From: Pseudomicrostroma phylloplanum
Taxonomy: Eukaryota; Basidiomycota; Exobasidiomycetes; Microstromatales
Direction of reading: 5' to 3'
Assembly: GCA_039545275.1 (NCBI GenBank)
Contig: BCHS01000016.1
Span: forward strand, 1-64,000
Length of the DNA: 64,000 bases
The notes under the pieces were generated by a model. The model did not search any database and was not told the DNA's origin. It saw only the letters and a list, made by a program, of their open reading frames with translations. Each line of letters begins with the position of its first letter. Position 1 is the stretch's first letter. Shown in pieces: positions 14,879 through 58,367 of this stretch. Position numbers and translations under genes: made by a program.

Positions 14879-15282
14879 GGTAGCGGTCCCACTGACGCTT
14901 TGGTGGCAGAGGGAGGTGGAGAGGTGGCGGCGCCGGCGGGGGGGCTGTGAGGAATAATAGTATAGCTAGTCTAAAGGCGGGACCCTGCATCTTCGGAAGC
15001 GCTGAATCTCTCCTCGGGCCATTTTTCCGCGCGATCGGTGGCCGAGGAAAGCCGAGCCATGTGGGAAGCACGGCGGACGACGGACGACGGACGACGGACG
15101 ACGGACGACGGACGACAGACAGATTGCATTCCGGCTAAGCTCGTTGAACCACGTCCGACGCCGAGCATTGTAGCATCCTCTCTACGCAGCCACTGGCTCA
15201 GCGCATCTTCGATCGATCAGGCACAGGCAGCTACGGCAAAAGGCCGTCCTATCCCCGCGTCGGCGTCATTGCTCGTTGCGCC
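14879..15282. other. divergent promoter region, PAF-AH-like / Zn2Cys6 factor
   Basis: About 400 bases between divergent ATGs. It carries the CGGACGA tandem array at 15074-15115. The rest is unremarkable GC-rich sequence. Confidence 0.5.
15074..15115. repeat. six tandem copies of the 7-mer CGGACGA
   Basis: Perfect 7-bp unit repeated six times, about 170 bp upstream of the Zn2Cys6 gene ATG and about 195 bp upstream of the PAF-AH-like ATG. Each unit starts with CGG, the half-site recognised by most Zn2Cys6 factors, so direct CGG half-sites are spaced every 7 bp. A regulatory role is inference. Confidence 0.9.
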
Positions 15283-18200
15283 ATGGCACCTCCCACGCCT
15301 CCTGCGGCCTCTGGACCTACTCCCGCCCAAGACTACCAGACATCCACAACGTATACTACATCCTCGACTCCCTCTCGCGTTCCTCCACTGGGAGTAGCAT
15401 CGTCGTCTTCCTCTCCCTGGTCCCATTGGTCTAGGCCTCCGCAACAAGCTCCCTATCCTGCGCACCACCACCTGCCTCCCATCAGAGCCTCGCGAGACGC
15501 AGAAGCACACAACAGTTGGGCTGCAGCGTCCCCATCCGCCGCCAGTGTCGTCTCTTCCCGTGGGGAAGACCTTTCTCATGGCGACGCTGCCGCGCAGGAC
15601 GATGATGAGGACACTCACCCCGGATCTGGAAAGCAGTCTCCATCCAAGAGGGCCAGCTCCGCTTCTAACAAGCGTTCTCGAGTCCACTTCTCCTGTACCG
15701 AGTGTCACCGTCGAAAGCAAAAGTGCAATCGTCAAACACCTTGTCAGCATTGCATCGCTCGTAAAGTGCCAGATCGATGCAAGACGTTTCAGCCTGGCCA
15801 GGATGAAGCCATGGACCTCACTGGCAGGGTCAATAAATTGGAGAGGACAGTTGAAGATGGCTTCGACAGGATCATGGCAATGCTGCGTCGTCAGCAGAAC
15901 GATCGGGCTCAGACACTTGAGCCGCAGGGCGGCGGGTCGAGGCTGGCGTCGTCACAGCCTATCCGAACACAGCACCCCACCTCTGGAAACGAGACTGCAG
16001 ACGAGGACGAAGCAAGCCAGGGAGGAGGGCTGAACGCCGCGGGCACTTTTCACGCTAGCGGCGCTACAATGGCAATGAAGATCGACACCATCCTCAGCGA
16101 CGTCGGCGGCAAAGTAGGGGAGAATGCAGTCCTCACTATGCCCATGCGCAGAGTCGAGCCGGGCTGTCTTAACACCAAGATGTGGGAGTATGGAGCAGGA
16201 GACAATGTCAGCGCACCTCTTCTGGCCGCCTTGCCCTCTCCAGATGTCTGTGAAGTCCTTCTAGCCCACTTCTGGAAGGACCTCAACTGGCTACGGCATC
16301 CTCTGCCCGAGGGGCTCGTCCGACCCATGATTGAGGAATTTCTTTCCAGTAAGGGATCGAACGGAGACTTCCCTCCGGTACTGACCACGTCGAGCATCAA
16401 CGTCTACGCATGTCTGGCCCTCATACTTGCCATTGCCTCGCTCAGCATCGAGGACGACCGATTCCCACGTGAAGCGGCGGCAAGACGCTTGGCAGGTAGA
16501 CGATTGGAGCGGGCTGGGCAGCAGGCTCTCATGCTGAGTCAAGTTCTGGGTAGAGACGACGTCGTCCAGATTCTCAGCTTTGGTCTTGCATGGAGATTCC
16601 TTATGATCGACCGGAGGATCAACGAAGCTTGGCGATGCTCGGCTAGTGCGATTCAAAGCGCGTACTCCATCGGTCTGCATCGGGATGGCAGCAAGCTCGG
16701 CCTACCGCAAATGGAGACGGATCTGCGGCGAGGCATCTGGCATTCGGTCCGGTTCGGTGATGTCACCTTGGCAATGAACCTGGGCAGACCCTCCATTTCG
16801 GACCTCGGCAACGTCTTTTCTGACACTCAGCAGCCTACATCTGAAGGCATGGATCATTGGTGGAAATTCGAGCGGCCCACGAGCCATCCCAATGCCAAGC
16901 CGGGAATACCGCTGCCAAGCATCCATCAGTACACAGCGCATCGGAACGATCTTGCTCGTATTGTGGGCAGAATCGTGGAGATTTACCAGAAGATCGAGCC
17001 TCACCACTACTCCGACGTAACGGCGCTGGATGCAGACATAGCCAAGCTGCAGGAAGACCTGCCACACTACTACAGGACGAAAATCTGCCCCTCTGGAAAG
17101 GTCACCTTCGATGCCAGCCTCGATGAAGCATTCGATTTCTTGGTAGAGCATCGCTTCCTGATGCACATGGAGATCAACTACACGAAAATCAATCTACATC
17201 GCTCCTATCTCTTGCGGTCGGGAGTCAAAGGACCAGGCGGTAGGCGTTTTGCACCCTCGCGCCGTGCTTGCGTCGAGAGCGCGATGCAGGACCTGGCGAT
17301 GAGGGACGAATTCGTGGAGAGCCTGAGGAAGAAGTACGGAATGGGAAACATTCCGCTTTCGTACTACGTCCAGATTGGATCCTACTCTTGGTTCAATTCC
17401 TTGCTCATCGCATCCATCGCGGCGCTGCTCGACCCAACAAGTATGCCAGAATTGCCGGCATTGAGAGAGCAAATTAAGCGCTTCCTATCCACGTACGAGA
17501 GGAGACAGACGGACGCGCGAGCTGCGGAGATGAAGGATGATATGAGGGATAGAGAGGCTTCCATCATCAAGATGTTCTCGGACGCCATCGACAAGGTTGA
17601 GCAGCAACGAGGTAGCGGAAAAGAGCCCAGTGCGCCGAAGAAGAGGCGATCCATAGCTCTGGAAGAGAGCCGTGCAACGAAAAGGCGGCTTCAAGCGCAA
17701 GGCAGCGGCGAACACAAGCACGTGGACGCCGACGACGTCAAGAGCTCATCGCCAGCGCCAGCAACGAGGGAAGAAGCAACGGCCGATGTTCTGCTGGACT
17801 TGGGAAAGCCCGCCAGCAGCTCCAAGGGACCATCGGCGTCTTCACCAATCCCTTCTGGGATTCCGTCGCATGTCAGCGCAGACACTCCTCCGCATTCATC
17901 TTCCTCGCAGCAACAGACTGGATTCTCGTCCAACCTCTCCACCATCTCAGGAGACTCTCCTTCGTCTCGAGTGGTTGATGACGCTCAGGCGGACCTCAAT
18001 GCTTGGTTCAAAAGAGAGTTCGCTGGGGGTTCTCTTGTCGACAACAGCCTCACAGACCTTGGCCTTCCTGACGGCTCTCGGCCAGGAGCAGGCGGCGATA
18101 GTAGCCTATTAAACTCCCTTATGGGCACAGGTGTTGGAGGCAGTGGAGGATTCACAGCGACCGGGAACAACCCTCCTTACTCCGACTTCACTGGGGCAGG

Positions 18201-18594
18201 CAATCAGCGCTCGAACTCGAGTCAAGGCAACGTACAGTGGGCAACCCTACCCCAACCTGCTTGGGGCACCAACGTCGGCAATGCTTGGTCATCGAGCATG
18301 CCGGGCCCATCGAGCGCAAGCGTTGGCGCTTTCGGAGGCGTCGGCGGCCCGCCTTCTTACCTCGGTGGTACTGCTGTTCCTCGTCAATCTGGAGACCTCC
18401 AGCCTACCTTTGCTGTCCCCTGCACTCAACCTTCCTTTGCACCTGGTGATACCGGCGATGGGATGAATGGGCCGGGCACGGCGTCAGCACGAAATCCGGC
18501 TGCAAGTGGAGGGCTTCCTGGCGAGATTGTGGGCGGGGAAACGAGCTTTGATCCTGGCTTCTGGGCGGACTTGATCAGCAAAATTTCGAAGTAG
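15283..18594 (+). CDS. Zn2Cys6 fungal-type transcription factor
   Basis: Single-exon 1103-residue protein. The binuclear zinc cluster sits at residues 138-166 with six cysteines C138, C141, C148, C154, C157 and C166 (C-x2-C-x6-C-x5-C-x2-C-x8-C), preceded by a basic KRSRVH segment. A short linker and a possible coiled-coil dimer element follow (LTGRVNKLERTVEDGFDRIMAMLRR). The fungal-specific factor domain spans roughly 300-720 (NVYACLALILAIASLSIEDD, AWRCSASAIQSAYSIGLHRDG, RRGIWHSVRFGD). The last 300 residues are Ser/Gly/Pro-rich and probably an activation region. The alternative in-frame start codons are less likely because 15283 follows the divergent promoter. Target pathway is unknown. Confidence 0.93.
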   Translation: MAPPTPPAASGPTPAQDYQTSTTYTTSSTPSRVPPLGVASSSSSPWSHWSRPPQQAPYPAHHHLPPIRASRDAEAHNSWAAASPSAASVVSSRGEDLSHGDAAAQDDDEDTHPGSGKQSPSKRASSASNKRSRVHFSCTECHRRKQKCNRQTPCQHCIARKVPDRCKTFQPGQDEAMDLTGRVNKLERTVEDGFDRIMAMLRRQQNDRAQTLEPQGGGSRLASSQPIRTQHPTSGNETADEDEASQGGGLNAAGTFHASGATMAMKIDTILSDVGGKVGENAVLTMPMRRVEPGCLNTKMWEYGAGDNVSAPLLAALPSPDVCEVLLAHFWKDLNWLRHPLPEGLVRPMIEEFLSSKGSNGDFPPVLTTSSINVYACLALILAIASLSIEDDRFPREAAARRLAGRRLERAGQQALMLSQVLGRDDVVQILSFGLAWRFLMIDRRINEAWRCSASAIQSAYSIGLHRDGSKLGLPQMETDLRRGIWHSVRFGDVTLAMNLGRPSISDLGNVFSDTQQPTSEGMDHWWKFERPTSHPNAKPGIPLPSIHQYTAHRNDLARIVGRIVEIYQKIEPHHYSDVTALDADIAKLQEDLPHYYRTKICPSGKVTFDASLDEAFDFLVEHRFLMHMEINYTKINLHRSYLLRSGVKGPGGRRFAPSRRACVESAMQDLAMRDEFVESLRKKYGMGNIPLSYYVQIGSYSWFNSLLIASIAALLDPTSMPELPALREQIKRFLSTYERRQTDARAAEMKDDMRDREASIIKMFSDAIDKVEQQRGSGKEPSAPKKRRSIALEESRATKRRLQAQGSGEHKHVDADDVKSSSPAPATREEATADVLLDLGKPASSSKGPSASSPIPSGIPSHVSADTPPHSSSSQQQTGFSSNLSTISGDSPSSRVVDDAQADLNAWFKREFAGGSLVDNSLTDLGLPDGSRPGAGGDSSLLNSLMGTGVGGSGGFTATGNNPPYSDFTGAGNQRSNSSQGNVQWATLPQPAWGTNVGNAWSSSMPGPSSASVGAFGGVGGPPSYLGGTAVPRQSGDLQPTFAVPCTQPSFAPGDTGDGMNGPGTASARNPAASGGLPGEIVGGETSFDPGFWADLISKISK

Positions 18595-19048: not shown

Positions 19049-22000
19049 ATGGCGCTGAGAGTGGCCACTTGCTCGCTGCTGGGCGGGGCGAGGCTCGGCA
19101 GCTGTGTACAGTCGTCTGCCTTGCGAAGCTCATGGCAGCTGAGCCGAGCTGCTTCGACAAAGGCTGTGCCGACTGCCCTCTTTGGCCCATGTACGGTGAA
19201 GCATTCTTTGCTACTACGCTCGCAGACGCGGCAGCCAATGAGTCTGCCGCGGCCTGGTCTGGCTCTCTCCCTCGTATCCTCGTTCCATTCGTCAGCAAAG
19301 CGAAGCCTGCCAGAAGTGGCCTCTTCAGCGGCAGGCGCTTCGCCCCAGTCCACTACGAGTACCGCCTCTGCCTCTTCTCCCTCCTCCTCTCCCTCCTATG
19401 CTTCCACGGGCCCTCCGCCGTCTGCGCCCACGCCGCGGATAGTAGGCTATCACTCTCTCTTTCTTGCATTCCTCGTATATGCTATCATCCTCGTGGGTGG
19501 GCTCACCCGTCTCACAGAGTCCGGACTGAGCATTACGGAATGGAACCCGGGGCTGAAGGGAATGTGGCTGCCCTCATCCGACGAGGAGTGGGAGGGAGAA
19601 TGGGCAAAGTACAGGGAGACGCCAGAGTTCCAGTTGTGAGTCTTAAATCCAGGTGGGGTTAGAGCGCCTGGCAAGTGCTGAAGAGACCTGCCTCTTTGCT
19701 GCCTTCAGATTGAATGCTCGAATGTCCCTCGACGATTTCAAGACGATCTACATGTGGGAATGGTCTCATCGAATCCTCGGCAGGGTCATCGGGCTGGCTT
19801 ACATTCTGCCTTCTCTCTACTTCATCGCACGAGGTTACGTCAAGCCGCCTTTCCGCTCTAAGCTCCTCTTGATCGGGCTTGGCATTGGAGCGCAGGGCGC
19901 TATGGGCTGGTACATGGTCAAGAGTGGGTTAGCCGCTCCTACGGGAACATTGGAGGTCGCTCAAGACCCTGATGCCCATGCGTCCGGCGCCCTTGCCCCA
20001 CCAGTCACCCCGGCTTCCTGGACGCCTCGAGTGAGCCACTTTCGCCTCGCTGCCCATCTAGGTCTGGCGTTTATCGTCTATGCAGGAATGCTACGCACAG
20101 GCCTTTCGATCCTGCGAGAGTACAATGTAGCCAAGAATGTCGGCACAGCTTCCGGCCTTGCCACGGGTCCGGGTGTCCGCGAACGCCTCATCTCGGTACT
20201 TTCGCGACCTGAAGTGATGAGATACAAGAGATTCGCAGCAGCGGTCACCGCCTTGGTCTTTGTCACTGCGATGTCCGGCGCCTTGGTAGCTGGTCTGGAT
20301 GCGGGACTCGTCTACAATGAGTTCCCCACGATGGGCGATGGAAGAATTGCGCCTCCCCTTGATGAGATGTTCGACGAGCGCTACGGCCGAAGCAATCAGA
20401 GCAATGGCGCCGACGGCGACACTGGTCGGTCATCCTTTGTGATTGGTAATCTCACCCAGAATCCGGTCACGGTACAGTTCATCCATCGATGCCTCGCCGT
20501 CACCACTTTTGCCCACGTCGTAGCTCTTTCCTGGAAGACCAGGACACTCTCTCGTGCACTGGCCAAGTCCGCCATCGTTCTGCCACCAGCCATTCCTCGA
20601 TTGGCAACTGCGTCCCTGGCTATGGCTACTCTGCAAGCATCGCTGGGCATCACAACGCTCATCTACCTGGTGCCCATCCCGCTCGCAAGTGCTCATCAAG
20701 CAGGATCAGTCGTCCTGCTATCGCTGATGCTGGCCCTGTGGGGCACACTGCGAGTGCCGAGCAGCGGAGGTCTGGCGAACAAAGTCCAGCAAGCCTACTC
20801 GGCTGTGCAGGCTGTTCGAGGAGGTTCTCCGATCGCAGTCTCGGCTTCGAGCGCTGGAGCCAGAGGGATGGCCACTCTCGCAAGTTGCAGGACGCAAAGC
20901 AGAGCTGTTGGCTCACGAAGAGCGGCCGTAGTACGCTCGCCACGAGGCCATGACATCAGGGCGTTCTCGTCCACCACTAGCAGGCGAGGAGACCTGGCTT
21001 CTCTGCCGGATAAGGTCAAGATTCGAACAGGACCAGCCGGGAGGTGAGGATGTACAGCAGAGGGGAGGGACTGGGGAAGAGAGAAGAGGAGAATTCATCG
21101 CATTACATGTATTATTGACACTGCTTCTCAATCGCCACCACTATTTCCATCATGCATGCGGCCGCTTCACGACGACGTTTGCCTACAGACTTGCCAAGGT
21201 GCTACCGCCGCGAGAGTCGCAGGACGTGACCACGCGTGTCGGCAGTAGCTACGGAGGCAACCATTCCCTCGAGTGGGTCGAGGCGCCGCGGAACATCTTG
21301 ATCATCACCAAGACGAATGACGACAAGACGCAGCAGGCGATGCAGAGGATCATTGAGTGAGTGGTGATAGCACGGCAGTGATGAGCGCCTACCCCTAGCT
21401 AGCAGACCTGGTAGTTCTCTGATCTCCATACATTTTCCCGCTCTGTTGGTCGCCCTTCCCTTGGATCAGGCACGTCGCGACTACCCAGCCGTCCATGAAT
21501 GTGGTCCTAGAAGAGGCCAACTCGCACATGCTCACATCGACACCCTGGGCAGAAAAGATCTCCCTGGTAACGTCCGCAGACAGGCACCTTCTGTGTCGCA
21601 AGGTGGACATCGTCGTCACCCTCGGCGGCGACGGGACGATCCTGCATGCCTCTTCCCTGTTTGACCACTCGCCCGTTCCCCCCGTCCTCTCCTTCTCCAT
21701 GGGCACCCTCGGCTTCCTCTTGCCCTGGCACATCGACGACTTCAAGACTGCGCTTCGGGACCTCCTTGGAAGTAGAGTGACGCTGCTGTTGAGGATGAGG
21801 CTGCGGCAGAGTATTCACCAGGCAAATGGAGAGGAGGTGGGCGAGGGAGGCGAGATTCACTTGATGAACGAGGTCGCGCTGCATAGAGGTCGCGAACCTC
21901 ACATGACCACCATTGACGCCTTTGTCGATGGAAGACATCTCACCCAGGCCATCGTGAGTGTCATGCCGACGTTTGCATCTGCGAAAGCCAGAGGCGACGC

Positions 22001-22664
22001 GCACTGACAAGTTCCTCCGCTTTCATTGGTGTCCTCAGTCAGACGGCCTGATCATTGCCTCGCCAACGGGCTCGACGGCGTACTCGCTGTCGGCAGGAGG
22101 CCCGATCGTGCATCCTTCAGTCCAGTCCCTACTGTTGACGCCGATCTGTCCGCGATCGCTGAGCTTCAGGCCTGTGTTGCTGCCGAGCGACTCGACTATC
22201 CAGTTGAAGGTGAGCGTCAGGGACGAAGCAAAGTGAGGAGTCTGGAAAGGTGTTGCTCAACTCTCACATCTCCCTCTCGCTCGTCGTCCCGCCAGATTGC
22301 CCGTCACTCGCGCTCTGCAGCAGAGCTGACCATCGACGGTCGGGAGATCCAGACGCTGACGCCAGGCCAGTATCTGCAGATCAGCATGTCTCCCTTCCCG
22401 ATCCCATGCGTGAACCGCGCCTCCTCCTCTGCACAGCCTCATCGTCGAGGTGCGGGTCAGGAGGCGGAGCGCAACGATGAGCCGCGGTTGATCGAGGGCA
22501 ACCGGGCGATTGGAGCCAATCCGGATCGTGGAGAGGACGATTGGGTAAAGGACATCAACACCTTGTTGAGGTTCAATGCATCCTTTGCTGGGCGAGGGCT
22601 GCTGGGGAGCGCTGAGGAAGAGGACCACGGCGATCCCAAGGGTAGAAACAGCGGTACACGCTGA
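19049..22664 (+). CDS. COX15 heme A synthase joined in frame to a mitochondrial NAD kinase (tandem-protein model)
   Basis: Exons 19049-19635, 19709-21043, 21189-21356, 21470-21953, 22039-22209 and 22296-22664 give 1037 residues with all phases closed. Residues 1-140 hold a mitochondrial presequence and Ser-rich spacer. Residues about 145-546 are COX15, which makes heme A from heme O in the inner membrane: [37 protein letters not shown] and SAHQAG, with the heme-ligand His residues. Residues about 583-640 look like a second presequence (MATLASC... [13 protein letters not shown]). From about 660 on is an ATP-NAD kinase ([49 protein letters not shown]), which makes NADP(H). If the 145-nt intron is retained, translation stops at 21045 and gives COX15 alone (641 residues). 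No ATG in the kinase frame lies between that stop and the kinase domain. Confidence 0.72.
20868..22664 (+). CDS. alternative model: stand-alone mitochondrial NAD kinase starting inside the COX15 frame
   Basis: Starting at the in-frame ATG 20868 and using exons 20868-21043, 21189-21356, 21470-21953, 22039-22209 and 22296-22664 gives 455 residues, a usual length for mitochondrial NAD/NADH kinases such as yeast Pos5. The first 45 residues are rich in Arg, Ser and Ala without acidic residues until GDL, and contain RAFSSTT, a good context for presequence cleavage. This start would need its own promoter inside COX15 coding sequence, or internal initiation. The kinase domain motifs are GGDG (nucleotide binding), NE in LMNEVAL and the SPTGSTAY loop. 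This is an alternative to the tandem-protein entry, not a separate locus. Confidence 0.45.
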
Positions 22665-22708: not shown

Positions 22709-24724
22709 TCAAGCGAGGTCCAAGGCCTCGAGGCCTTCGGAAAAGTCGTCTTCCGAGTCTTCATGGTAGTCGTCTTCGTCTTCGTCCTCTTCCTCTTCTT
22801 CCTCCTCCTCCTCTTCCACCGCCACTTCGTCGCGACCGGCCTCGGAGGTGCTGAGCTGTCCGTTGCGCTGATTCTGATCTAGTGGCGCGCCACCTTCCTC
22901 GTCGTCATTCGCAGGTACTAGCATGCGTTGAGAAGCCTCGCCACGACTCGGTCTGCGGTCCACGCTAGCCCGGCTCCTCGAGACGCTCCTGGCCTTTGTA
23001 GGCGTCGATTCTCCTTCGGCGTCTGCCATGAGGGCAGCCTCGCTCAGACGTCGCGGAGCTAGAATGAGATCCTCTGGGGAACGTCGAGCTGGTGAGGAGA
23101 AGGGCGGCTGCTCAGGTGGACGGGAGGGCGTCGTCTCGTTGGCTGGAAGCTCGGAGTCGTCCAATAGATACTGGGTCCGCGTATTCGCCTTTGGCGTGCT
23201 ATTCTCCTCGTCCTCTTCCTCCTCTTCGTCTGCCGAGCTGGTGCGAGCCATGGGCGTGTGCAGCGCTTGCTGACCCGGCTCGTACTCGCCAGGGAAACAC
23301 TCTCGATGTTGCCGTTGACTCGGTTCGTTGCCCCATCGCCAATGGCTTGCACTGGAGCCTTGACCATAATCGCCTTTCAACCACGGTGGAGGCTGAGCTT
23401 CTGCAAATGGCGCGGCTGTTGGTGGAGCACTGCCACTATGCACACCAGCGGGGACATGTCCTGCAATTCCGCTCGATCCGTCGATGTCCAGTGAGGTGGC
23501 ATTGATGGCTGCGGCGGCGGCGGCCTCCATCATGGCGGCGACGGCAGCCGCTGCAGGCCCTCCACCACGTCCCTCGGAGATGGTCAGGCTGCGTTTGCGG
23601 CCCTTGAAGCCTACAGGCATTTTGAGCGCCGTGGCTGGAGTAGAGAGTCCTTCTACCGGCCCTGAAGGCTTGACGAGCGGGACGGCGGTGGAGAAGGGAA
23701 GGGGCGCGGTCCCTGACTGAATTGCAGGAGGATCGAGGGCGAGTGGTATCACCGGCTCGGGAAGGAACTTGATCTTCAAGAAGGGATGGGTGACCTGTGG
23801 TGATGTCAGGAGCAGTGCTGGAGAGTGAGCCGGACCGAAGGTAGCGCTGCGATGGGGGGTAAAAGGAGAGTCGAGGGAGGAAGTGGTACCATTGGCAGCC
23901 GAAATGGAGGGAGAAAAGTAGAAGCTTTCCTTGCCGGCCGAAGGAGAAGCGCCATTGGCCTGCTTCGAGTTGCGGCCATCTGTGATACGCAGCCAGCGGA
24001 GAGTGGTACCCTGGGGCCAGGTCCACTCTTGTACCTGGCTACGATGTACAGCAAGGTTGATCTCCTTGCCTACCCAGCCGGTGATCCACTTTTCGCAGTC
24101 CTGCTTGTCGTCCTCGTCTGCCTCGCCCTCCAGCCCAGCGCGGAGACAGCGGTGAGTTTCTGGATGTATCGAGTCGAGTGGGTAGCCCTGGAGGAGCCGC
24201 AGCAGAGCGAGTATCAGCGCTGTAGGTCCAGGAGTGAGGGAGACGATGAGGAGTGGTGATGCAGAGGAGGATACGATTGTGGAGATTGCCTCCTCTGCGA
24301 CGTCCTTTGTGATGGCGCTAGCTCCGGCATCTTTCCACGCCTCGATCTTGATCCACTTGATCTCCACCGCCTCCTTTTGCGCCCACTGCTCAATGGCAGG
24401 GACCTGCTTTGTTGGATGCTTGGGCGTTAGCGCCAGGAGCGTCTTCAGCTTCAGCCGAGAGAGAAAGGGGAGATGGCGTGGCAGAGGATGCGAGGAAGAG
24501 AAGAGCTGGGCGGTACGAGAGGCCTCGCCGGCGGCCAAAAGTGTGAACCGCAGCGGAGGGATGAGCGGAGGAAGCGGTAGAGATGTGCGGAATATGGCAG
24601 TGGGCGATGGCATGTTCTTCTTGGGGCGAGCCTGGAGGGTCTCCTGCCTCTCCATGCTAGAAGACGAGGAATAGTACGACGAGGCGGAAGCGGAAGCGGA
24701 AGCGTAGAGGGTGGGCGACTCCAT
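22709..24724 (-). CDS. Oca/Siw14-type tyrosine-phosphatase-like protein, probably catalytically dead
   Basis: Single-exon 671-residue protein. The N-terminal third resembles the yeast Oca/Siw14 phosphatase-like family: FRTSLPLP, then LPRHLPFLSRLKLKTLLALTP, EIKWIKIEAW and a helix pattern ending RLLQGYPLDSI. Where active members have the C-x5-R loop (HCxxGKxRTG), this protein reads SLTPGPTALILALLRLLQG, so the catalytic Cys and Arg are absent. That is the state of Oca4/Oca6-like pseudophosphatases, which act in inositol-pyrophosphate and stress signalling complexes. The remaining 400 residues are low-complexity, with a poly-Ala run and an extremely acidic C terminus (EEEEEEEEEDEDEDDYHEDSEDD). 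It overlaps no neighbour, but its stop lies only 44 bases from the NAD kinase stop. Family call is moderately sure. Confidence 0.65.
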   Translation of the reverse strand: MESPTLYASASASASSYYSSSSSMERQETLQARPKKNMPSPTAIFRTSLPLPPLIPPLRFTLLAAGEASRTAQLFSSSHPLPRHLPFLSRLKLKTLLALTPKHPTKQVPAIEQWAQKEAVEIKWIKIEAWKDAGASAITKDVAEEAISTIVSSSASPLLIVSLTPGPTALILALLRLLQGYPLDSIHPETHRCLRAGLEGEADEDDKQDCEKWITGWVGKEINLAVHRSQVQEWTWPQGTTLRWLRITDGRNSKQANGASPSAGKESFYFSPSISAANGTTSSLDSPFTPHRSATFGPAHSPALLLTSPQVTHPFLKIKFLPEPVIPLALDPPAIQSGTAPLPFSTAVPLVKPSGPVEGLSTPATALKMPVGFKGRKRSLTISEGRGGGPAAAAVAAMMEAAAAAAINATSLDIDGSSGIAGHVPAGVHSGSAPPTAAPFAEAQPPPWLKGDYGQGSSASHWRWGNEPSQRQHRECFPGEYEPGQQALHTPMARTSSADEEEEEDEENSTPKANTRTQYLLDDSELPANETTPSRPPEQPPFSSPARRSPEDLILAPRRLSEAALMADAEGESTPTKARSVSRSRASVDRRPSRGEASQRMLVPANDDEEGGAPLDQNQRNGQLSTSEAGRDEVAVEEEEEEEEEEDEDEDDYHEDSEDDFSEGLEALDLA

Positions 24725-25058
24725 CCTGGGCGACGCAGGAGGTGCTGGCTTGGCTTGGCTTGAGCTGCCTTGATGATCCGCAGCTGTGATGGTCTGATCA
24801 GCTTCTCGTCATGTTGATCGTCTGATCATGATCCTTCTCGTCGTCGTCGTCCAGGTGGCAGTGGTGGTAGAGTCGACCTTGGCTGGGCGCCGACGCCGTG
24901 TGCGGTGAGCGTCGGCGTGTCTTTGTTTGGCCTCCGCCTCTTTCCGTCTGCGTCGGCGCGCGGCTCCACAAGGCAGAATTTCCAGGCGATACCAGTGCGG
25001 GGCAAAGGGAACAAGTGACATGGTGACTACTACATCAACTCACGGTACACCAACAGAC
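24725..25058. other. divergent promoter region, pseudophosphatase / GPN1
   Basis: 330 bases between divergent starts, with two further in-frame ATGs for GPN1 at 24927 and 25020. No other feature is recognised. Confidence 0.4.
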
Positions 25059-43871: not shown

Positions 43872-46800
43872 TCATGCCTCCTCTTCACCTTCCACAAGAG
43901 CGGTCAACTGACCGTTGCGATGAGGCGTAGACGGCCTCGACCGGTTGCCGCTTGGTGCAAGCACTCGACCAAGACGATCACTTTCATCCACAGCAGAATC
44001 GTACTCCGCATCATCCTCATCGCCACTCTGCTGCACGGAACGGCCCATTGACGTAGTGCGGAAGGACTGCTCTGCTTGGTCTTCTCCTTGGTCATCACAG
44101 GAGAAGTCGGTGTCCTCTGATAGCCTCGAGCTCTGGAAGGAGGGTCGAGTGGGCGTCAGAGCGCCTAGGCCACGTTGTCTCGGAGCCAAAGGCGATTCGT
44201 CGAAAGAGTTGAGTGACCCGCTTCCTCGAGATAGGTTCGACTCCTCTGAGGCTCGGACACCAGCGCTTCGGCCATTGGCTTGGCCATACGCGCTGCGATG
44301 GGAGGACGAGATGGAACGAGACGATCGTGGGCGGACCCAACCTGACTCGTGCTCCATGTCACTGTCTGAATCTGCCGGCTCCGTCTCTTCTTCCTCGCCC
44401 AGGGAAGACTCGAATGAGTAGCGGGGCATGTCGTCAGCAGATTCTCGGTCATGCGGGCCTCTTGCATGGCGAACGAAGCCGTCGATCATGTCCAGCTCGT
44501 CGAGGAATGAAGCGCCCCCACCGTTACCATTGGTTGCAGTCGACGTCCCAAAGCTCGTATCAGGCATGATCGTCTTCGAGGAAGTCATGCCTGCATATGG
44601 TCCTGTCTCAGACTGACCGTGTAGAGCTGGCGCTCCCTTGCGAGGCGAAGACAATCGGCTGCTCGAAAGTGATCCCATCGAGGCCTGATGACGGATCGCC
44701 TTCTCATGCTGTGCAAGCTCGTCAGCAATAGAGGTGTCGCCGCTTTCCTCTTCGTCACTCCAAGAGTCTACGTGGGCAGTCTCGCCTTGAGCAATGACTG
44801 GCGTGATAGCAGCCGCGGCAGCATGCTCCGCCTCACGCAGGCGCGGTGTCGAGTAGAGCGAATCGCGGGAGCCTTCGGGCAAGGCAGCGCTCTTCTTGGT
44901 CGGAGAATTGAAGAGGCCAGGCAAAGCGGCTTGCGAATCCCTCATCAGTTTCAATGAAGCTGACTTGGGCGTAGCAGGTGGACTACCAACGGAGCGAACA
45001 CTCGGCGCGCCGCCTTCTAGCCGAAGTTGTCGATGGGAGATTTTGCGAGGAATTCCCTCCTGACGCGGCGTGCTGGTGCCGATGTCATGTGTCATGGAGA
45101 GGGAAGAACCATTTCGCAATTGCTCTGTAGGAGTGGGCGAGCGTTCAACGTCCATGTCCTTCCCGTCGGTGACAACCGTCTCGGCCTCGATGATCTGTGT
45201 CGGGGTGACAACTTCAGGTCGTCGGGACTGTGTGACCTGTCTGACGAGCTTTGCACCATTGCCATGAGAACCATCATCGGATAGATCCGAAGTTCGCTCG
45301 TGACGCGAGAGACTTCTGCGCAGCTCTTGCACCAGAGGAGAATCGCTGTTGATGGCGAAAGCCGAAGCGGGGGTGCCGTACAACGAGTCCTTGTCTGCTC
45401 TACTTGGCGTCAAGAATTGTGTACGCCGAGTATCCGGCGACTGTTTGCTGAGCGAAGGCGTCCTGTTCAGCGCAGAGTCAACAGTGTGAGGTGTCTGCTG
45501 ACGGCGCGACTGAGAGGGCGTTCTGCCAACTGCCGATCGCGATAGACTAGCTGACCTCTCAAAGCTGCGACGTGGCTGTCCGTCACTTGCCTTGCGTAGC
45601 ACATCACCATTCGGACCAACAGGGCTATTCGAGGGTCCTGCAGCAAAGGCTTTCCTTTGACGCTCACGAATCTCCTCCTGCGTCGGATCGGCCTTGCCAG
45701 CGCCAGACTGGGTGCCTGTGCCAGCGCCTTCTACGACATCAGGTGCTGTGCTCGGTCTTCTGCGTCCATTTGTAGGGCTGAGTTGCGCCTCTGACGTGGA
45801 CTGGGTTCGCGGTTGCTCGACACTCGACGAAGGTTGACGTCGACCGGCTTCTAGTGCGCTGTCGCCCGAAACGTTACGCTTAGCAGGCGATCCATCGAGT
45901 CCAGTGGCGAAGAGGGCAGAAAGAGGAATCCTTGGAACCGCAGGCACATCTCCTGACGATTTCCTCTTCATGACTGAGCCGTCCTTCCTCTTCCCTACAG
46001 GAGTAGTGACGCTTCGGTTACGCTCACTTCCGTCGTAGCGCTTCGAACCCCTTCTGACGTTGTGAGACGCCCTCCGTCGGGCAGCCGATCGACTGACCGA
46101 GCGGCCCCCCTTGGATGGCGAGCTTTCCTGGTCGATAGCTTTGGGCGTCTTGAGAGACATGTCGCAACCTGCCTGAACTAGGATCCGCGGAACGTCAAGG
46201 TGACCACGCGTTGTGACCATTCGGTGGGTGAAGGAAGTCTGAAGTCCGGGTCCGAAGATGAACTCGCCACCTAGCAGCTTTGTGTCTCCAGGCAAACGAA
46301 CAGGCATCTGGAAGAGTCCCTTCTTGACAGCCTGCATGGATCCCTTCATGATGCTCATCGTAATATAATCCGGCTTCGCGCACGCCGGTCCCGGATCGTT
46401 GGTCCGCTTTGTCATTCCCAAGGCGTGATAGATCTTCCTGCTGGGATCAGCATACATCTGGATCCAGTCTGGAACTCCCATGACCCTTTTGTAGGCTGCA
46501 AGGACATGAGGATGACCTTGCCCAACAACGATCATCCCGAGGTTGGCTCGCTGCAATGGAAGCGGGTCCAAGTTGGCCATGGACATTGCGTATTCTTGAC
46601 ACATTGGACAGAACCAATGCCGGAGGAAGCAGACCAGAGTGCGTTGCTTTGCAAAGATCTCACCAAAGTTTTGCAGATCTCCAGTCTCCGTGAACATCGT
46701 CAAAGAAGCGGCCTGCGCCAACGCTTCCTCGGTAGGTGGATCAATTGCGTACGAACCGGATGCTGCCTCCTCTTCGGCTTCAGTCATCTCGCCCAAACCG

Positions 46801-48881
46801 CTGTCCTCGGTTGTCTCTGCAGCAGGGCCTGAGGCGGCAGATGGGTCTCGTGTACCCTGTGTGGCAGCCGAGGCATCGCGCTTACTCAGAGAGGGGCTGA
46901 TAGCGGCATTGCCACCACTGCCTGGTCTCCTCGCGAAGCCGCGCCCATCTCCGAGGCCTTTGGCTCTTCCTGAGGAGCTCCTCTGAAGGCTGCTGCTCGG
47001 TTCAGCACTCGAGGTGGCCGCCGGTGCTCGATCGCGTCCCAGCGAAGCCGATCTGGCCATTGACACGGCAATTGCCTGTTGCCTTGCTGCTGTGCCCCTT
47101 GACGGAGCAGCAACCTTGCTTCCCGCAAGAGGGGAGCGCTGCGCCAGAGCTGAGTCGTGCGAGGAGCTCACAGCTCGTGGCGCTTGTGGAGAGGCCTTCG
47201 CAGGCGAGTTATCGCCAAGGACAAAGGCCTGACCATCCACCATCACCGTCGAGATAGGGGCAGCCGTACTTGAGTCTAAAGCAGCAGGTGCATCGGGAGC
47301 GAAATCCATGTTAGCATCATAGATGCCGGGTGTTTGGCCTTCAGCGAGAGGTTGCAGATGGCGTGACAGCGGCATTGCAGATTGGGGAACACTTTGTCTG
47401 GAATCACGGGAGCCAGTCGAACCTCTCCTGAGCTCCGAGATGGGGACGCTATCGTCTCCTGTCAACGAAGGTGACCTCGGGCTCGTGGGCACCTCGTCTC
47501 CGTACTCGCTTGGCGTAGGCTTACGACGAACGCGAAAGGTAGAGGAAGAAGAAACACTGGCCATGCTGCCCCTCCTTTGCTCCGCTAGTCTCGAATTTGA
47601 GTTTGATTGAGTCATAGGAGGTGCCATTAGCAAAGAAGAGGCACTGCCTCTTCGAGCGTCAGAAGCAGCGGGTGACCCGCTCAAGCGCCGATCGAGACTA
47701 CCCGACGAAGGGGGAGGGCCGAGCGCCGAGGAGGCTCGAGGATCGCTACCCCTCCGAGCTGCCGCCATGACCGGTCTAGGAGGTGGCTCTAGGCGCGGTG
47801 CGAAAAGGCCGGCTGAGCTCGAGGAACCGGCCTGAGAGTCGCTAAAGAGTAGCGGTTTTGGGGATGGCAAGGGCGATCCGCCCACCTTCGTTGGAGATGC
47901 GCCAATGATTCTGACCGAAGCGAGGGGATCTACACCTTCGTCGTCCTCTCTGGAGGTGGTCATGGCCAATTCAGAGAGATTACTGCTCTTCATGCTGCGA
48001 GGAGAAGGAGGAGCAGTCATCCGGCGAGGGGAGTTGGGCTGTGTCCTAGATGGGGCTCGGTCGGGGGTGGGAGGAATGGGCGACATAGGTGGCTCGCTCT
48101 GAGGCGGAAGACTGCGTGGTGAGCCCAAAGAGCGAATAGACAGATTGGGACTCGACTGTGTAGACTCGAGGGGAGGCCTTTGAGGAAAGTCGGAGCCTGA
48201 TGCCTGTTTGGTGGGCGATCTATTCTGACCAAGAGAAGCAGAAAAGTGGCTCCGGTCTATGGTAAGAGATGTTGAACTCCTGACAGCAGCCAAGCGGCGG
48301 TTCGTGGGTGGCGTGGAAGGCAACGCTAGGGGGTCCCTCTGTGGTGTCGAGGGCGTTGAGGTCTGTAAAGGTCCAGAGAGCGACAATGCTGCTGCCGCTC
48401 TTGGTGAAGCCTCTGTTGGGTCGCCACCATTCTCGTGAGTGGTACCTTTGATAGTGGTCGAGGCTGAGGCTGAGGGCGCTGTAGGGGCGGATGTATCCAT
48501 CACACCAGTCTGTGAAGGCGTACGGAGAACAGACTTGCTGTACAGTGGCGGAGGGGACGCATTGCGATCCATACTCGACGTAGCCATCAAGGAAGAGGTT
48601 GCCAGAGAACTGGAAGCCGGTCCAGGAGGCTTCGAGGTGGCCTGAAGACCGGTGCCGTACATGCTTGACGACCGTCTTTGAGGAATCACGATCCGCTGCG
48701 CCATGGTCCCTTGCGACATGTCTGGTGAAATTGTCTGAGTCGGGCTGTGTTTGAGAGAGGACGCTGATGGGTCCAAGCCCAGCAGAGAAGGATTGGCAGA
48801 TGGCGGTGCTGCAGCTCTGAGGAATGTTCCGGCGGTTAGGATCCTTGTTGTGACACTATAAGAAGGAAGGGTTGTATACAA
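43872..48881 (-). CDS. giant low-complexity protein with an AhpC/TSA_2 (peroxiredoxin-like) domain
   Basis: One 1669-codon open frame. About residues 725-925 form a thioredoxin-fold domain of the AhpC/TSA_2 (PRXL2/FAM213-like) type: LTMFTETGDLQNFGEIF, TLVCFLRHWFCPMCQEYAMSM (CxxC near 757-760), MIVVGQGHP, MYADPSRKIYHALGM and GGEFIFGPG. Such domains are linked to redox or prostamide-type reductase activity, but no reaction is proven here. The flanking 700 residues on each side are Ser/Pro/Arg-rich with many SP/TP sites and no domain. The first residues may be intron sequence: the ATG at 48719 (MSQGTMAQRIVIPQRR) is a likely alternative start, with a 5' exon not excluded. Family members are usually about 200-250 residues, so the size is exceptional. 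Confidence 0.75.
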   Translation of the reverse strand: MYTTLPSYSVTTRILTAGTFLRAAAPPSANPSLLGLDPSASSLKHSPTQTISPDMSQGTMAQRIVIPQRRSSSMYGTGLQATSKPPGPASSSLATSSLMATSSMDRNASPPPLYSKSVLRTPSQTGVMDTSAPTAPSASASTTIKGTTHENGGDPTEASPRAAAALSLSGPLQTSTPSTPQRDPLALPSTPPTNRRLAAVRSSTSLTIDRSHFSASLGQNRSPTKQASGSDFPQRPPLESTQSSPNLSIRSLGSPRSLPPQSEPPMSPIPPTPDRAPSRTQPNSPRRMTAPPSPRSMKSSNLSELAMTTSREDDEGVDPLASVRIIGASPTKVGGSPLPSPKPLLFSDSQAGSSSSAGLFAPRLEPPPRPVMAAARRGSDPRASSALGPPPSSGSLDRRLSGSPAASDARRGSASSLLMAPPMTQSNSNSRLAEQRRGSMASVSSSSTFRVRRKPTPSEYGDEVPTSPRSPSLTGDDSVPISELRRGSTGSRDSRQSVPQSAMPLSRHLQPLAEGQTPGIYDANMDFAPDAPAALDSSTAAPISTVMVDGQAFVLGDNSPAKASPQAPRAVSSSHDSALAQRSPLAGSKVAAPSRGTAARQQAIAVSMARSASLGRDRAPAATSSAEPSSSLQRSSSGRAKGLGDGRGFARRPGSGGNAAISPSLSKRDASAATQGTRDPSAASGPAAETTEDSGLGEMTEAEEEAASGSYAIDPPTEEALAQAASLTMFTETGDLQNFGEIFAKQRTLVCFLRHWFCPMCQEYAMSMANLDPLPLQRANLGMIVVGQGHPHVLAAYKRVMGVPDWIQMYADPSRKIYHALGMTKRTNDPGPACAKPDYITMSIMKGSMQAVKKGLFQMPVRLPGDTKLLGGEFIFGPGLQTSFTHRMVTTRGHLDVPRILVQAGCDMSLKTPKAIDQESSPSKGGRSVSRSAARRRASHNVRRGSKRYDGSERNRSVTTPVGKRKDGSVMKRKSSGDVPAVPRIPLSALFATGLDGSPAKRNVSGDSALEAGRRQPSSSVEQPRTQSTSEAQLSPTNGRRRPSTAPDVVEGAGTGTQSGAGKADPTQEEIRERQRKAFAAGPSNSPVGPNGDVLRKASDGQPRRSFERSASLSRSAVGRTPSQSRRQQTPHTVDSALNRTPSLSKQSPDTRRTQFLTPSRADKDSLYGTPASAFAINSDSPLVQELRRSLSRHERTSDLSDDGSHGNGAKLVRQVTQSRRPEVVTPTQIIEAETVVTDGKDMDVERSPTPTEQLRNGSSLSMTHDIGTSTPRQEGIPRKISHRQLRLEGGAPSVRSVGSPPATPKSASLKLMRDSQAALPGLFNSPTKKSAALPEGSRDSLYSTPRLREAEHAAAAAITPVIAQGETAHVDSWSDEEESGDTSIADELAQHEKAIRHQASMGSLSSSRLSSPRKGAPALHGQSETGPYAGMTSSKTIMPDTSFGTSTATNGNGGGASFLDELDMIDGFVRHARGPHDRESADDMPRYSFESSLGEEEETEPADSDSDMEHESGWVRPRSSRSISSSHRSAYGQANGRSAGVRASEESNLSRGSGSLNSFDESPLAPRQRGLGALTPTRPSFQSSRLSEDTDFSCDDQGEDQAEQSFRTTSMGRSVQQSGDEDDAEYDSAVDESDRLGRVLAPSGNRSRPSTPHRNGQLTALVEGEEEA

Positions 48882-49894
48882 GAGAGGTCTGCACTGGTAG
48901 ATGCAGGCTGCGCTGCTGAGTGATGCTGAGAGGAGGAGAAAGAGATGATACGATTATGACGACGACGACGGGAGGAGGATAAGAGAGGTGAGGTGTAAAG
49001 GTGCGGAGTGGATGGCGACCAAACAGCATCACCGGAAGGGCGGAACTGCGCTTGGCGTGCGGAATTGGCGCCCCCGATCTCGATGTGGGCGTGCAGCGCG
49101 CAGTGGCCGGAAAGAGCCAGGTGGGGCCGCCTGCCGTGGGGATCAGAGGGCGGGGAAAGGGAGCGGCCTTTGGGGAAGCCTAATTCCTCTTCCGGCGATA
49201 GCGATCGGACAGCATGGCGATGAATGACTGCGACGATGTTCAGACGATAACAGCGATGAGCTCTCGCTCGAGTGCATATGCTTGTTCGACTCTCGCTTGT
49301 CTATCAGCAACGGGACCCTGCAGCAGTCGCTTAGCCCCAGCGCAGCAATCGGCCCACAGCCGCTCGCCCGCATCCTCCCGTCATGCATTCGTGTGGGAGA
49401 CTGGGAAACGTTTGATGGTGCCCCCACCGCGGACACTGGGCGCCGATTGCGCATCAGACCCTGTTAAAATGTCGAAGGACATGATCTGTAGCTTACGCGA
49501 GTATGGCGGACTCATCTCTCCTGCTGCTAGAGGAGAAGACGGCGCTTGACTAGCAGAACAAGCCCCATAATATCACGCTCCGAAAATGTGTACCTGTCTT
49601 GTATTGTTACATGTCTGACCGCGTCGACTCGACCCTGGTGTAGTGTTCGAGGTACCAGGACCTACGCATGTGCTCTCCCAACTTGTCTCTAGGCTTCCTG
49701 ACCCCTCCTGCCCTGCGAAGATTGGGCGGTTTTCTGGTAGAGACAGCGAGGGCAGCAACAGTGTCAGTAAGAGTACCTCTTTGCTGACAGGAGGAGACTT
49801 TCGTCCGTACAGCCTGTACAGAGCCTTCTGCACTCCCCCTGCTGAACAGGGCTCTGCGCTTCGGCTGGACCGAACGTGGTGACCTCTTTTCCAT
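48882..49894. other. intergenic region upstream of the giant AhpC/TSA-like gene
   Basis: About 1 kb. It includes a GAC run near 48957-48972 and the 3' flank of the prefoldin gene. The long minus-strand open frame extending prefoldin sequence to 49573 is most likely readthrough past its last intron. Confidence 0.4.
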
Positions 49895-55800: not shown

Positions 55801-56561
55801 TCCCGCTGTCGGACCTCGCTTCCAGGCCATCCCCCTCACCCAGCTCTTTGACGGCCCGACGGCTCAAGCGAGTCACCTCTGCGGCGCCAGACCACTCTCG
55901 ACGCCACGCTCGCACGGACAGCTGTCATTAGTTTCAGCGAAGCTCCGCTGCTGCTGCTGCACACTGTCCTCAGGAGGAAGAGCCGCCAGTGACGGACCGA
56001 TCCACCCACGGCAGGCACGGCACCCGTCTTCTAGAAGGAGCGGCTTCCCACTCCGACTTATCGCATTGGGGCTCAGCACCGTGGAACCGCCGAAAAGTCT
56101 CAAACCTCCGGCGCAGCGTCTCAGACATCGAGTTACCACACCACGGCTTGTCTCGGAGGCAAGATTCATTGGCATCCCGTCCGATCATTCGTTCGCCGCC
56201 TTCCCGTTGGAAGTCGACTACGACCTCCGCCGCGTGTGCCGGACGCTCCGCTCATAGAGTGTGAAGGTACCGACGATCACCTCTAGCCGGGCCGCTACAG
56301 ACGCTGGAAAAGAAGACTGCTTCACGCTATCACTTGCTAGGCCGCCCTTCTTTCCGACGCTTCGGTCCCCGTTGCCCTGCTCACCCGCTTCACCCCGCCC
56401 ATAGATATCACCAAGTTTGGCCTACCCTCCCCCTTGCTCACCCCCTCTCAAAAGCACCCAGTGACTCGCTCATCAACATCCCCTCCTCCTCCACAGTTAC
56501 TCCCCCTCACTTTCGCACAAGCCGACATCTTGCTCCTGGCTGCCAACTCTGACAAGACTTC
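52899..56561. other. 3.7-kb non-coding region upstream of the homeodomain gene
   Basis: The longest gene-free stretch in the window. It has purine-rich blocks (around 53640-53700), G-rich stretches and, from about 56330 to 56560, a pyrimidine-rich leader-like segment before the homeodomain ATG. Open frames of up to 180 codons exist but are Arg/Pro/Gly-biased shadows with no domain. A long regulatory region or 5' leader for the homeodomain gene is the simplest reading. An undetected non-coding transcript is possible. Confidence 0.4.
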
Positions 56562-58367
56562 ATGGCGCTGCTACTGACACAATCTCCACGGACGACTCAC
56601 AGCAGTCATCACCAACACAGCAAGTCCTTTCAATTCCCTACCCCGCCTCTCCAGCGCTTCCAGATGGCCCCACCAGGCTCGAGCTCGGGCAGCTCAAGTG
56701 TCGGGCGCACGCCGGGCCCTTCGGTCCTCATGCCCTCGCAGGCTTCGCAGGCTTCGCAGCATTCTGCCCATTCCTCGTACAGCGGCACTCCAACACTGTC
56801 AAGCACGACCGTGCCCACCTCAGCGACATCATCGACCGCCTCGATCTCCAATCTTGGTCAAGTCCCTCGACAGGTTGCATCCGAGAGTGTTAACCGACAG
56901 CCCGAGGCTCACCCTTCGACGGACTCAGGACACGTCTGGAATTATACCAGCACCCCTACCGCTCAGAGATTAGACAATGCCGCAACACCCCGACCATCCT
57001 CTTCCGACGGTGTGTCGTCATACTCTGGAAATGCTACACCTGTCAACAGACATGCGATGGGTGGACCTCCCGTCCGTCCAGCCTTGACTTCCTTCAACTC
57101 TATGCCCAACCACGTCAGCATCGGCAGCGGTCTGCAGCATCATTACTCTTCGTATCAGCAGCAGCTGCCGCCTCTGCCACAACAGCATGAGCAAAACCTG
57201 CGGGGCACAGTCAGCCAGTACGACACGTCACCTCATTCTCATCCCCAGGCAGAGCTCAGTGCATCAGGACTGATGATCGGAAGTCAGTATGCCTCGGGTG
57301 TCAACGATGGGTACCATCCCGGGAGCATGCCTCCCACTGCAGCTCTTGGACCACCCACAGATGGCGTACGAGTGCCCTTCATTGGTGACGGCGCTTCGCA
57401 CTACCCTTATCAGTACCAGTCGCACTCCCAGCCCCACGACCACTTTGTCGGCGCGGGAGGAGACGAGGGCAACATGGCCGACTACGAGAGCAATGATCTC
57501 AGGCGTGAAGGTGGTTGGAACCCCTTCGAAGTCAAGCATCGAAGGAGGACTACCAAGGGCCAGTTCAGGGTCCTCGAGGACACTTTCCAGAAGACTCCCA
57601 AGCCTTCGAATGAGGTGCGCAAAGCCATCAGCGAGCAGCTGGACATGCCTCCTCGTGCTGTGCAGATCTGGTTCCAGAACCGCAGGGCAAAGGCAAAGAC
57701 TGCCATGAGGAAAGCAGCAGCAGCCGCGGCGGCAGCAGGTCGCCCTCACCATCACGCAGCACTCATGGCCAAGCAAGACGAGGACGACATGAACGCACTC
57801 GCTGGTCCTTCGTCTTCTGACGCTCCTCCTTTCAATCGAAGAATCAGCGGGAACAGTGGCAACAGCACTGGCACTTCCTTCTCTGACCCCTCGGACCCCG
57901 GCTGGAAGGGCCACTCTGCTGTCCTTGGAAACAGGCCGCTGCAGGCAAAGTATCCCTACCAGCAGGGCCTAGGAGGCCCCATGGACGGTCGACGACTGTC
58001 GTCGTCTGCCATCGACGCTCATGGGTACATCTCTCCCCCTGGAATGGGACAGCAGTATGGTCAGCAGATGCAAGCTGCTTGGCGCTCGCAGCAAGGTCCC
58101 GGATCTGTCCCCATGTCGGGTCCCAGTCAGTCATACCCCTCCTACAGGCCCGGGATGTCAGGTCACACCAGCCAGGACCTCTACAGCTCTCCTAACCACA
58201 TCACCTTTGGCTCGGGAGCAAGCTATGAGATCTCTCGAGATGCGTCTCAGCATTCAGTCCAGCAAGCAGCCGCGTACCATCAACAGCCTGGCTCTTACTA
58301 CACTACTGCGCCTGCGCCTGCGCCTTACGACCTCTCTGAGCGATCTTGGAGGCACGAAAGGGAGTGA
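56562..58367 (+). CDS. homeodomain transcription factor
   Basis: Single-exon 601-residue protein. A homeodomain lies at about 326-382: HRRRTTKGQFRVLEDTF (helix 1), KPSNEVRKAISEQLDM (helix 2) and PRAVQIWFQNRRAKAKT (recognition helix with the invariant WFQNRR). It has a classical 60-residue spacing, so it is a typical (non-TALE) homeodomain like fungal Yox1/Phx1-type regulators rather than a mating-type factor. The N-terminal 320 residues are Ser/Thr/Pro/Gln-rich and the C-terminal 200 are Gln/Ser/Gly/Tyr-rich, with a poly-Ala run directly after the homeodomain. The protein is expected to be nuclear. An upstream long leader is likely. No target is predictable. Confidence 0.92.
   Translation: MALLLTQSPRTTHSSHHQHSKSFQFPTPPLQRFQMAPPGSSSGSSSVGRTPGPSVLMPSQASQASQHSAHSSYSGTPTLSSTTVPTSATSSTASISNLGQVPRQVASESVNRQPEAHPSTDSGHVWNYTSTPTAQRLDNAATPRPSSSDGVSSYSGNATPVNRHAMGGPPVRPALTSFNSMPNHVSIGSGLQHHYSSYQQQLPPLPQQHEQNLRGTVSQYDTSPHSHPQAELSASGLMIGSQYASGVNDGYHPGSMPPTAALGPPTDGVRVPFIGDGASHYPYQYQSHSQPHDHFVGAGGDEGNMADYESNDLRREGGWNPFEVKHRRRTTKGQFRVLEDTFQKTPKPSNEVRKAISEQLDMPPRAVQIWFQNRRAKAKTAMRKAAAAAAAAGRPHHHAALMAKQDEDDMNALAGPSSSDAPPFNRRISGNSGNSTGTSFSDPSDPGWKGHSAVLGNRPLQAKYPYQQGLGGPMDGRRLSSSAIDAHGYISPPGMGQQYGQQMQAAWRSQQGPGSVPMSGPSQSYPSYRPGMSGHTSQDLYSSPNHITFGSGASYEISRDASQHSVQQAAAYHQQPGSYYTTAPAPAPYDLSERSWRHERE

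Follow-up and report, generated by a model that had tools for sequence, protein, structure and literature searches.

A COX15-POS5-type NAD kinase tandem frame in Pseudomicrostroma phylloplanum and its putative mitochondrial precursor

Etp1 of Schizosaccharomyces pombe is a tandem of Cox15 and a ferredoxin, and Arg5,6 of Saccharomyces cerevisiae combines two soluble halves that act in one pathway. According to work cited in PMC8847149, the tandem precursor Arg5,6 is cut internally by the matrix processing peptidase (MPP); the same text ascribes similar internal targeting-like and MPP signals to Etp1 and Rsm22-Cox11. Rsm22-Cox11 of S. pombe is reported to be cut after import (PMC12375894). Further sources describe the electron supply of Cox15. 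Electrons arrive via Yah1 and Arh1, with NADH as the source for Arh1 (PMC7140478), and S. pombe Arh1 takes both NADPH and NADH (PMC13046142). Etp1 is named as the ferredoxin (PMC10279924), while another source describes instead an S. pombe tandem of Yah1 plus Arh1 (PMC7140478).

Here, we analyse a frame within a 64,000-nucleotide stretch of Pseudomicrostroma phylloplanum DNA (the window), in which COX15 is continued by a POS5-type NAD kinase. Judged by sequence, one frame spans two enzymes that occur in relatives as distinct proteins, as is characteristic of tandem precursors. As in Etp1, COX15 forms one half of a predicted mitochondrial composite precursor, and the partner in Etp1 likewise belongs to the electron-supply route to Cox15. 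In contrast, the C-terminal half is a ferredoxin in Etp1 and a POS5-type NAD kinase here; because of this C-terminal half, the window protein is no member of the Etp1 type, although it is closest to it in the COX15 half. Like Arg5,6, it would be one precursor for two enzymes, whereas its first half is an inner-membrane protein. With Rsm22-Cox11 it shares the pairing of a cytochrome oxidase assembly protein with an unrelated matrix protein, but the proteins differ and, judging by the name, the membrane half comes second there.

Full-text literature searches, with most subscription journals outside their range, found no paper that, judged by title and the beginning of the abstract, describes a COX15-NAD kinase fusion. 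Within that range, the COX15-POS5 fusion appears to be a mitochondrial tandem precursor not previously described. An earlier note on this DNA knew of no such case, and this holds for the papers searched; a database protein from Parajaminaea phylloscopi (P0001), however, has the same architecture and had gone unremarked. Its record, "unnamed protein product", is without stated function or processing, and the literature search found no paper on P. phylloscopi.

One open frame for COX15 and a POS5-type kinase

The spliced six-exon model comprises 3114 nt, that is 1037 codons plus the stop, and contains no internal stop (Table 1). All five introns are GT...AG. Intron 2 begins with GTGAGG, ends with CTACAG, and lies in phase 2. 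The model and the in-phase joining of the COX15 and kinase frames by this 145-nt intron had been put forward in the earlier note, and both are reproduced here. If the eighth transmembrane helix, positioned manually, ends at residue 546, the roughly 95 stop-free codons claimed beyond the last helix come to exactly 95, and from the COX15 stop to exon 3 the exon-3 frame indeed lacks an ATG, as the note had it. An ATG at 20950, absent from that note, lies in the exon-3 frame rather than the COX15 frame; with the intron retained, this frame would run on into the kinase without a stop. Codon-position GC separated linker and intron poorly and was of no use for judging coding status.

Table 1. Features of the COX15-POS5 locus in the window.
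Feature	Coordinates	Strand	Basis
Complete COX15-POS5 tandem CDS, six exons, 1037 aa	19049..22664	+	Open spliced frame; P0001 has the same architecture
Presequence-like N-terminal mitochondrial region, residues 1-88, zero acidic residues	19049..19312	+	Composition
COX15/CtaA heme A synthase domain (putative), residues 137-536; contains intron 19636-19708	19457..20729	+	Pfam PF02628, hydropathy, hand-placed helices and loop charges
Linker, residues 547-627, holding the suggested fusion point: COX15 tail, then basic POS5-presequence-like segment	20760..21002	+	Comparison of 10 homologous linkers
Upstream cleavage-like motif R-G-M-A-T, from residue 581; Met583 (ATG 20868) inside	20862..20876	+	Linker comparison
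Downstream cleavage-like motif R-A-F-S-S, from residue 613	20958..20972	+	Linker comparison
Kinase exon-1 block ending (R), in a frame contiguous with COX15	21003..21043	+	Block present in 22 kinases and in 9 proteins of the COX15 side
Intron 2, 145 nt, phase 2, probable ancestral POS5 intron	21044..21188	+	Start of the P0127 frame immediately ahead of the same residue
N and C domains of the NAD kinase, residues 677-954; introns 21357-21469, 21954-22038 and 22210-22295 within	21295..22412	+	Pfam PF01513 and PF20143; yeast POS5 3afo is the best solved match

The first half belongs to the COX15/CtaA family and is a putative heme A synthase. The Pfam domain COX15-CtaA (PF02628) is matched at E 1.3e-90, with 304 bits against a cut-off of 29.9, and hydropathy together with placement by hand predicts eight transmembrane helices in or just past the domain. 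The expected conserved glutamate and four histidines are present (E213/H216, H312, H455, and H525), and we take them to be the functional residues of heme A synthase. Neither the COX15 half nor a COX15 profile found a COX15 match among solved structures. The charges of the loops between the hand-placed helices obey the positive-inside rule if the COX15 C-terminus lies in the matrix, where a POS5 kinase would also belong.

The second half is assigned to the POS5 type and is a putative mitochondrial NAD(H) kinase. Both NAD_kinase (PF01513, residues 677-796, E 3.3e-16) and NAD_kinase_C (PF20143, residues 829-954, E 3.5e-34) exceed the cut-off, and a GGDG sequence at residues 749-752 is presumably the NAD kinase motif. 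The closest solved structure is yeast POS5 (3afo, E 5.4e-63), and the kinase half groups with Ustilaginomycotina kinases, several of which are named POS5. The genome searched comprises 17.08 Mb on 20 contigs, with the window on contig C16. The only COX15 gene found in it is the fused one; of the two NAD kinase genes found, one is the fused gene, also the only POS5-type gene found, while the other lies on contig C4 and matches at 43% identity. A search of the genome for the Fer2 family gave no match. On C4, an adrenodoxin-type ferredoxin-like match was seen on the minus strand at 369417-369548 (73% identity to positions 2-45 of a 65-residue query), with one TGA inside; introns may be the reason why the family search missed it.

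Relatives and the junction of the two genes

A protein search with the whole fusion scored 7993 candidates and gave 810 matches, of which the best 120 were listed. Among those listed, all three domains occur in the same order in one other protein, P0001 (1052 aa), which is 67% identical over 88% of the window protein. The fused type is represented by ten database COX15s (P0001-P0007, P0240, P0241, and P0242), all relatives being compared as protein records. Eight of them (P0002-P0007, P0240, and P0242) end exactly at the arginine of the block LPDKV..GPxGR. P0001 runs past this block into the kinase, and P0241, a partial protein of Jaminaea rosea grouped by similarity only, stops in the last helix. 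The eight block-ending records carry the tag lgn and look unspliced. If so, their frames would end where the intron donor creates a stop. The contig sizes of 5-67 kb and the unspliced appearance argue for genomic DNA, without proving it; were the records transcripts, the eight frames would also fit a COX15-only product. The unspliced look shows in P0149, a record with the same tag that has a read-through intron, and in P0240, which opens with unrelated letters at the expected end of intron 1.

The fused-type COX15s stand out by their tails. Past a strict HQAG-type anchor, 61 other COX15s extend by a median of 48 and at most 67 residues, compared to 85-112 in the eight block-ending proteins and 113 in the window; this anchor left out 50 of the 120 loosely defined COX15-like proteins. 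A looser anchor covered 44 of these 50, with tails of 35-71 residues except for P0032 at 119. LPDKV-like letters occur in only nine of the 120, all of the fused type. P0032, from Exophiala, has its unusually long tail past the HQAG-type motif without an LPDKV block. In P0034 (Gonapodya), COX15 lies inside a 1745-aa protein together with PF23394, possibly a further fusion with COX15 or else a merged gene model.

A tree built from 34 chosen COX15s places all 11 rows of the fused type, the window protein among them, in one clade (100/100). A tree of 25 chosen kinases unites the window, Parajaminaea, J. rosea, and P0149 (99/98, with a long-branch warning concerning outgroup rows). Parajaminaea and Jaminaea belong to the Microstromatales. 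An additional alignment of 44 rows combined P0001 with proteins that have only COX15 or only the kinase; it was discarded, as its kinases were only 13-17% identical to P0001 and had apparently been aligned with COX15. The COX15 and kinase fragments of J. rosea sit on contigs of equal size (754703), as do P0007 and P0149 (48671), which supports physical linkage of the two parts; the J. rosea annotation consists of two partial models and not one fusion. COX15 and kinase of Exobasidium rhododendri are on contigs of differing size. In Meira, both carry the contig size 3264745, yet COX15 has no extension, and the separate COX15 and POS5 proteins compared from other Ustilaginomycotina have none either. 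The tandem reading, which the earlier note had proposed to check in related basidiomycetes, is strongly supported by the Parajaminaea protein and by the eight COX15 frames, all of which stop at one shared arginine inside kinase exon 1. An open frame with a usable intron would by itself be weak evidence; the architecture common to relatives confirms, on comparative grounds, that the COX15-POS5-type tandem frame is real, well beyond chance. The gene probably arose once, in an ancestor of the sampled Microstromatales clade, by an in-frame union of COX15 with POS5 exon 1.

The junction itself has to be moved. The earlier note had placed it at intron 2, but the COX15 frame holds the kinase exon-1 block already upstream of this intron: its last 14 residues correspond to a block that POS5-type kinases conserve close to their beginning. 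The LPDKV-block pattern matched 31 of 333 proteins, namely 22 kinases without a COX15 domain and 9 COX15-side proteins; kinases with a diverged block, such as P0143 of Tilletia, fall outside it. Nineteen of the 22 kinases start with Met and have at least 30 residues ahead of the block. The remaining three are P0125 (J. rosea) and P0128 (Meira), both partial and without a Met start, and P0159, with only four residues ahead. Moreover, the kinase frame P0127 starts in non-conserved letters directly ahead of the same Arg-Leu, which fits an intron ending at this point. Intron 2 is therefore probably the kinase's own, an ancestral POS5 intron, and this suggests that the genes were joined earlier in the frame, inside exon 2 at about 20760-21002, between the COX15 tail and the LPDKV block.

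A basic linker with cleavage-like motifs

The linkers of the window protein and nine relatives were compared. All ten are basic, counting 6-12 Arg/Lys against 0-2 acidic residues, and all contain the motif R-x-[FLIMY]-[SAH]-[ST], with the upstream copy at linker positions 35-44. We assume from the consensus that motifs of this kind resemble presequence processing sites. Shuffled linkers gave a summed expectation of 0.76 linkers with the motif, compared to ten seen; as the linkers are related by descent, this excess is no test of significance. A second copy nearer to the kinase is found in four linkers (window, P0001, P0002, and P0005) and, under the strict pattern, is missing from the other six (P0240, P0003, P0004, P0006, P0007, and P0242). 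Acid-free basic windows of 30 residues occur in all ten linkers, but also in COX15 membrane regions.

Standalone kinases carry comparable segments. The motif is present ahead of the block in 13 of the 22 kinases, and the distance between the downstream motif of the window protein and the LPDKV block is similar to that in several standalone POS5-type kinases. Some linkers closely resemble the end of a standalone presequence, such as RGFATSSVCSDRR in P0005 beside RTFATSSLCQRR in the Tilletia kinase P0143. The best reading of these likenesses is that the linker derives in part from the ancestral POS5 presequence. Met583 is the sole Met of the window linker and is replaced by Leu in P0240, the COX15 of which matches 85% of the query at 96% identity; three of the ten linkers (P0240, P0005, and P0007) have no Met at all.

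Proposed processing of the predicted precursor

We propose that one nuclear gene, presumably read as a single transcript, encodes a tandem precursor that would be imported via its N-terminal presequence. The COX15 half would insert into the inner membrane by eight helices, leaving its C-terminus on the matrix side, followed by the basic linker and, in the matrix, the POS5-type NAD(H) kinase. By analogy with Arg5,6, Etp1, and Rsm22-Cox11, MPP would most likely cut the linker and thereby free the kinase, yielding heme A synthase and a soluble kinase in equal amounts. This course of events is, in our judgement, probable. A possible benefit is reducing power for Cox15 via ferredoxin reductase and ferredoxin; such a gain through NADPH supply is plausible, and mere co-expression would explain the fusion too.

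Left uncut, the protein would act as a bifunctional enzyme, with heme A synthase tethering the POS5 kinase at the matrix face of the inner membrane and NADPH made locally for the ferredoxin route to Cox15. The matrix-facing COX15 C-terminus indicated by the loop charges would suit this arrangement, as would the fused-type rows on either side of the first split in the COX15 clade. The strict-pattern downstream motif, absent from six of the ten linkers, also speaks for an uncut chain and against cleavage. Against the proposed tandem precursor as a whole it also counts that the cleavage motifs are consensus resemblances within linkers of common descent, that acid-free basic stretches are shared with COX15 membrane regions, and that the annotation of J. 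rosea gives two partial models. One review has Arh1 using NADH (PMC7140478), which weakens the rationale of NADPH supply. We nevertheless consider an uncut enzyme unlikely, since each of the ten linkers retains a basic stretch that resembles a presequence and carries one or more cleavage-like motifs, and since Arg5,6 (PMC8847149) and Rsm22-Cox11 (PMC12375894) are reported to be cut. Slightly more doubtful still is that an uncut, membrane-anchored kinase feeds NADPH to the ferredoxin reductase-ferredoxin pair and is, beside Etp1, the second case in which Cox15 was independently fused to its own electron supply; if true, the uncut tandem and Etp1 would point to a physical redox complex around Cox15.

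The remaining explanations dispense with an obligatory tandem product. If intron 2 is retained, TGA at 21045-21047 terminates a COX15-only product, so that two overlapping genes could be envisaged: COX15 would end at this stop, and a kinase transcript would begin in exon 2, at Met583, or from another first exon. The complete COX15 frame, the presequence-like segment after Met583, and the two J. rosea models, both partial, would agree with this. However, Met583 is Leu in the closely related P0240, three linkers lack any Met, and P0001 is recorded as one protein, which makes two genes improbable and the fused reading much the more likely. Nor does the stop carry weight, as an AG|GTRAG donor in phase 2 always creates one, and we rejected a special regulatory meaning for it on these grounds. 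For the same reason, it is very improbable that a single gene makes two isoforms, the tandem from spliced and COX15 alone from retained intron 2, with splicing setting the enzyme ratio, even though stop and donor overlap and retention would yield a complete COX15-only product; mRNAs with retained introns are, besides, usually degraded. That neighbouring genes merely look joined through an artefact of gene model or assembly, as the two partial models in J. rosea might suggest, is largely refuted by distinct relatives in which the same frame ends in kinase exon 1, and is hardly credible.

If the tandem precursor is read correctly, fungi have on at least two occasions fused Cox15 with a component connected to its electron supply, a ferredoxin in Etp1 and an NADPH-making kinase here, and such repeated fusions hint at functional coupling. 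The dependence of heme A synthesis on POS5-made NADPH thereby becomes a testable question. A former presequence could, moreover, persist within a protein as a processing signal, and the fusion is a candidate gene-structure marker for Microstromatales.

The window holds further frames around this locus. Directly upstream of COX15, a large open frame on the plus strand (15148-18591) has Zn(2)-Cys(6) cluster and Fungal_trans domains. A convergent open frame downstream (22712-24808, minus strand) has a domain of the tyrosine phosphatase family (Y_phosphatase2) and a long acidic run near its C-terminus. Farther along, a 1693-codon open frame at 43875-48953 on the minus strand carries an AhpC/TSA antioxidant-enzyme-like domain in the middle of the protein, and a homeodomain protein is encoded on the plus strand at 56553-58364.
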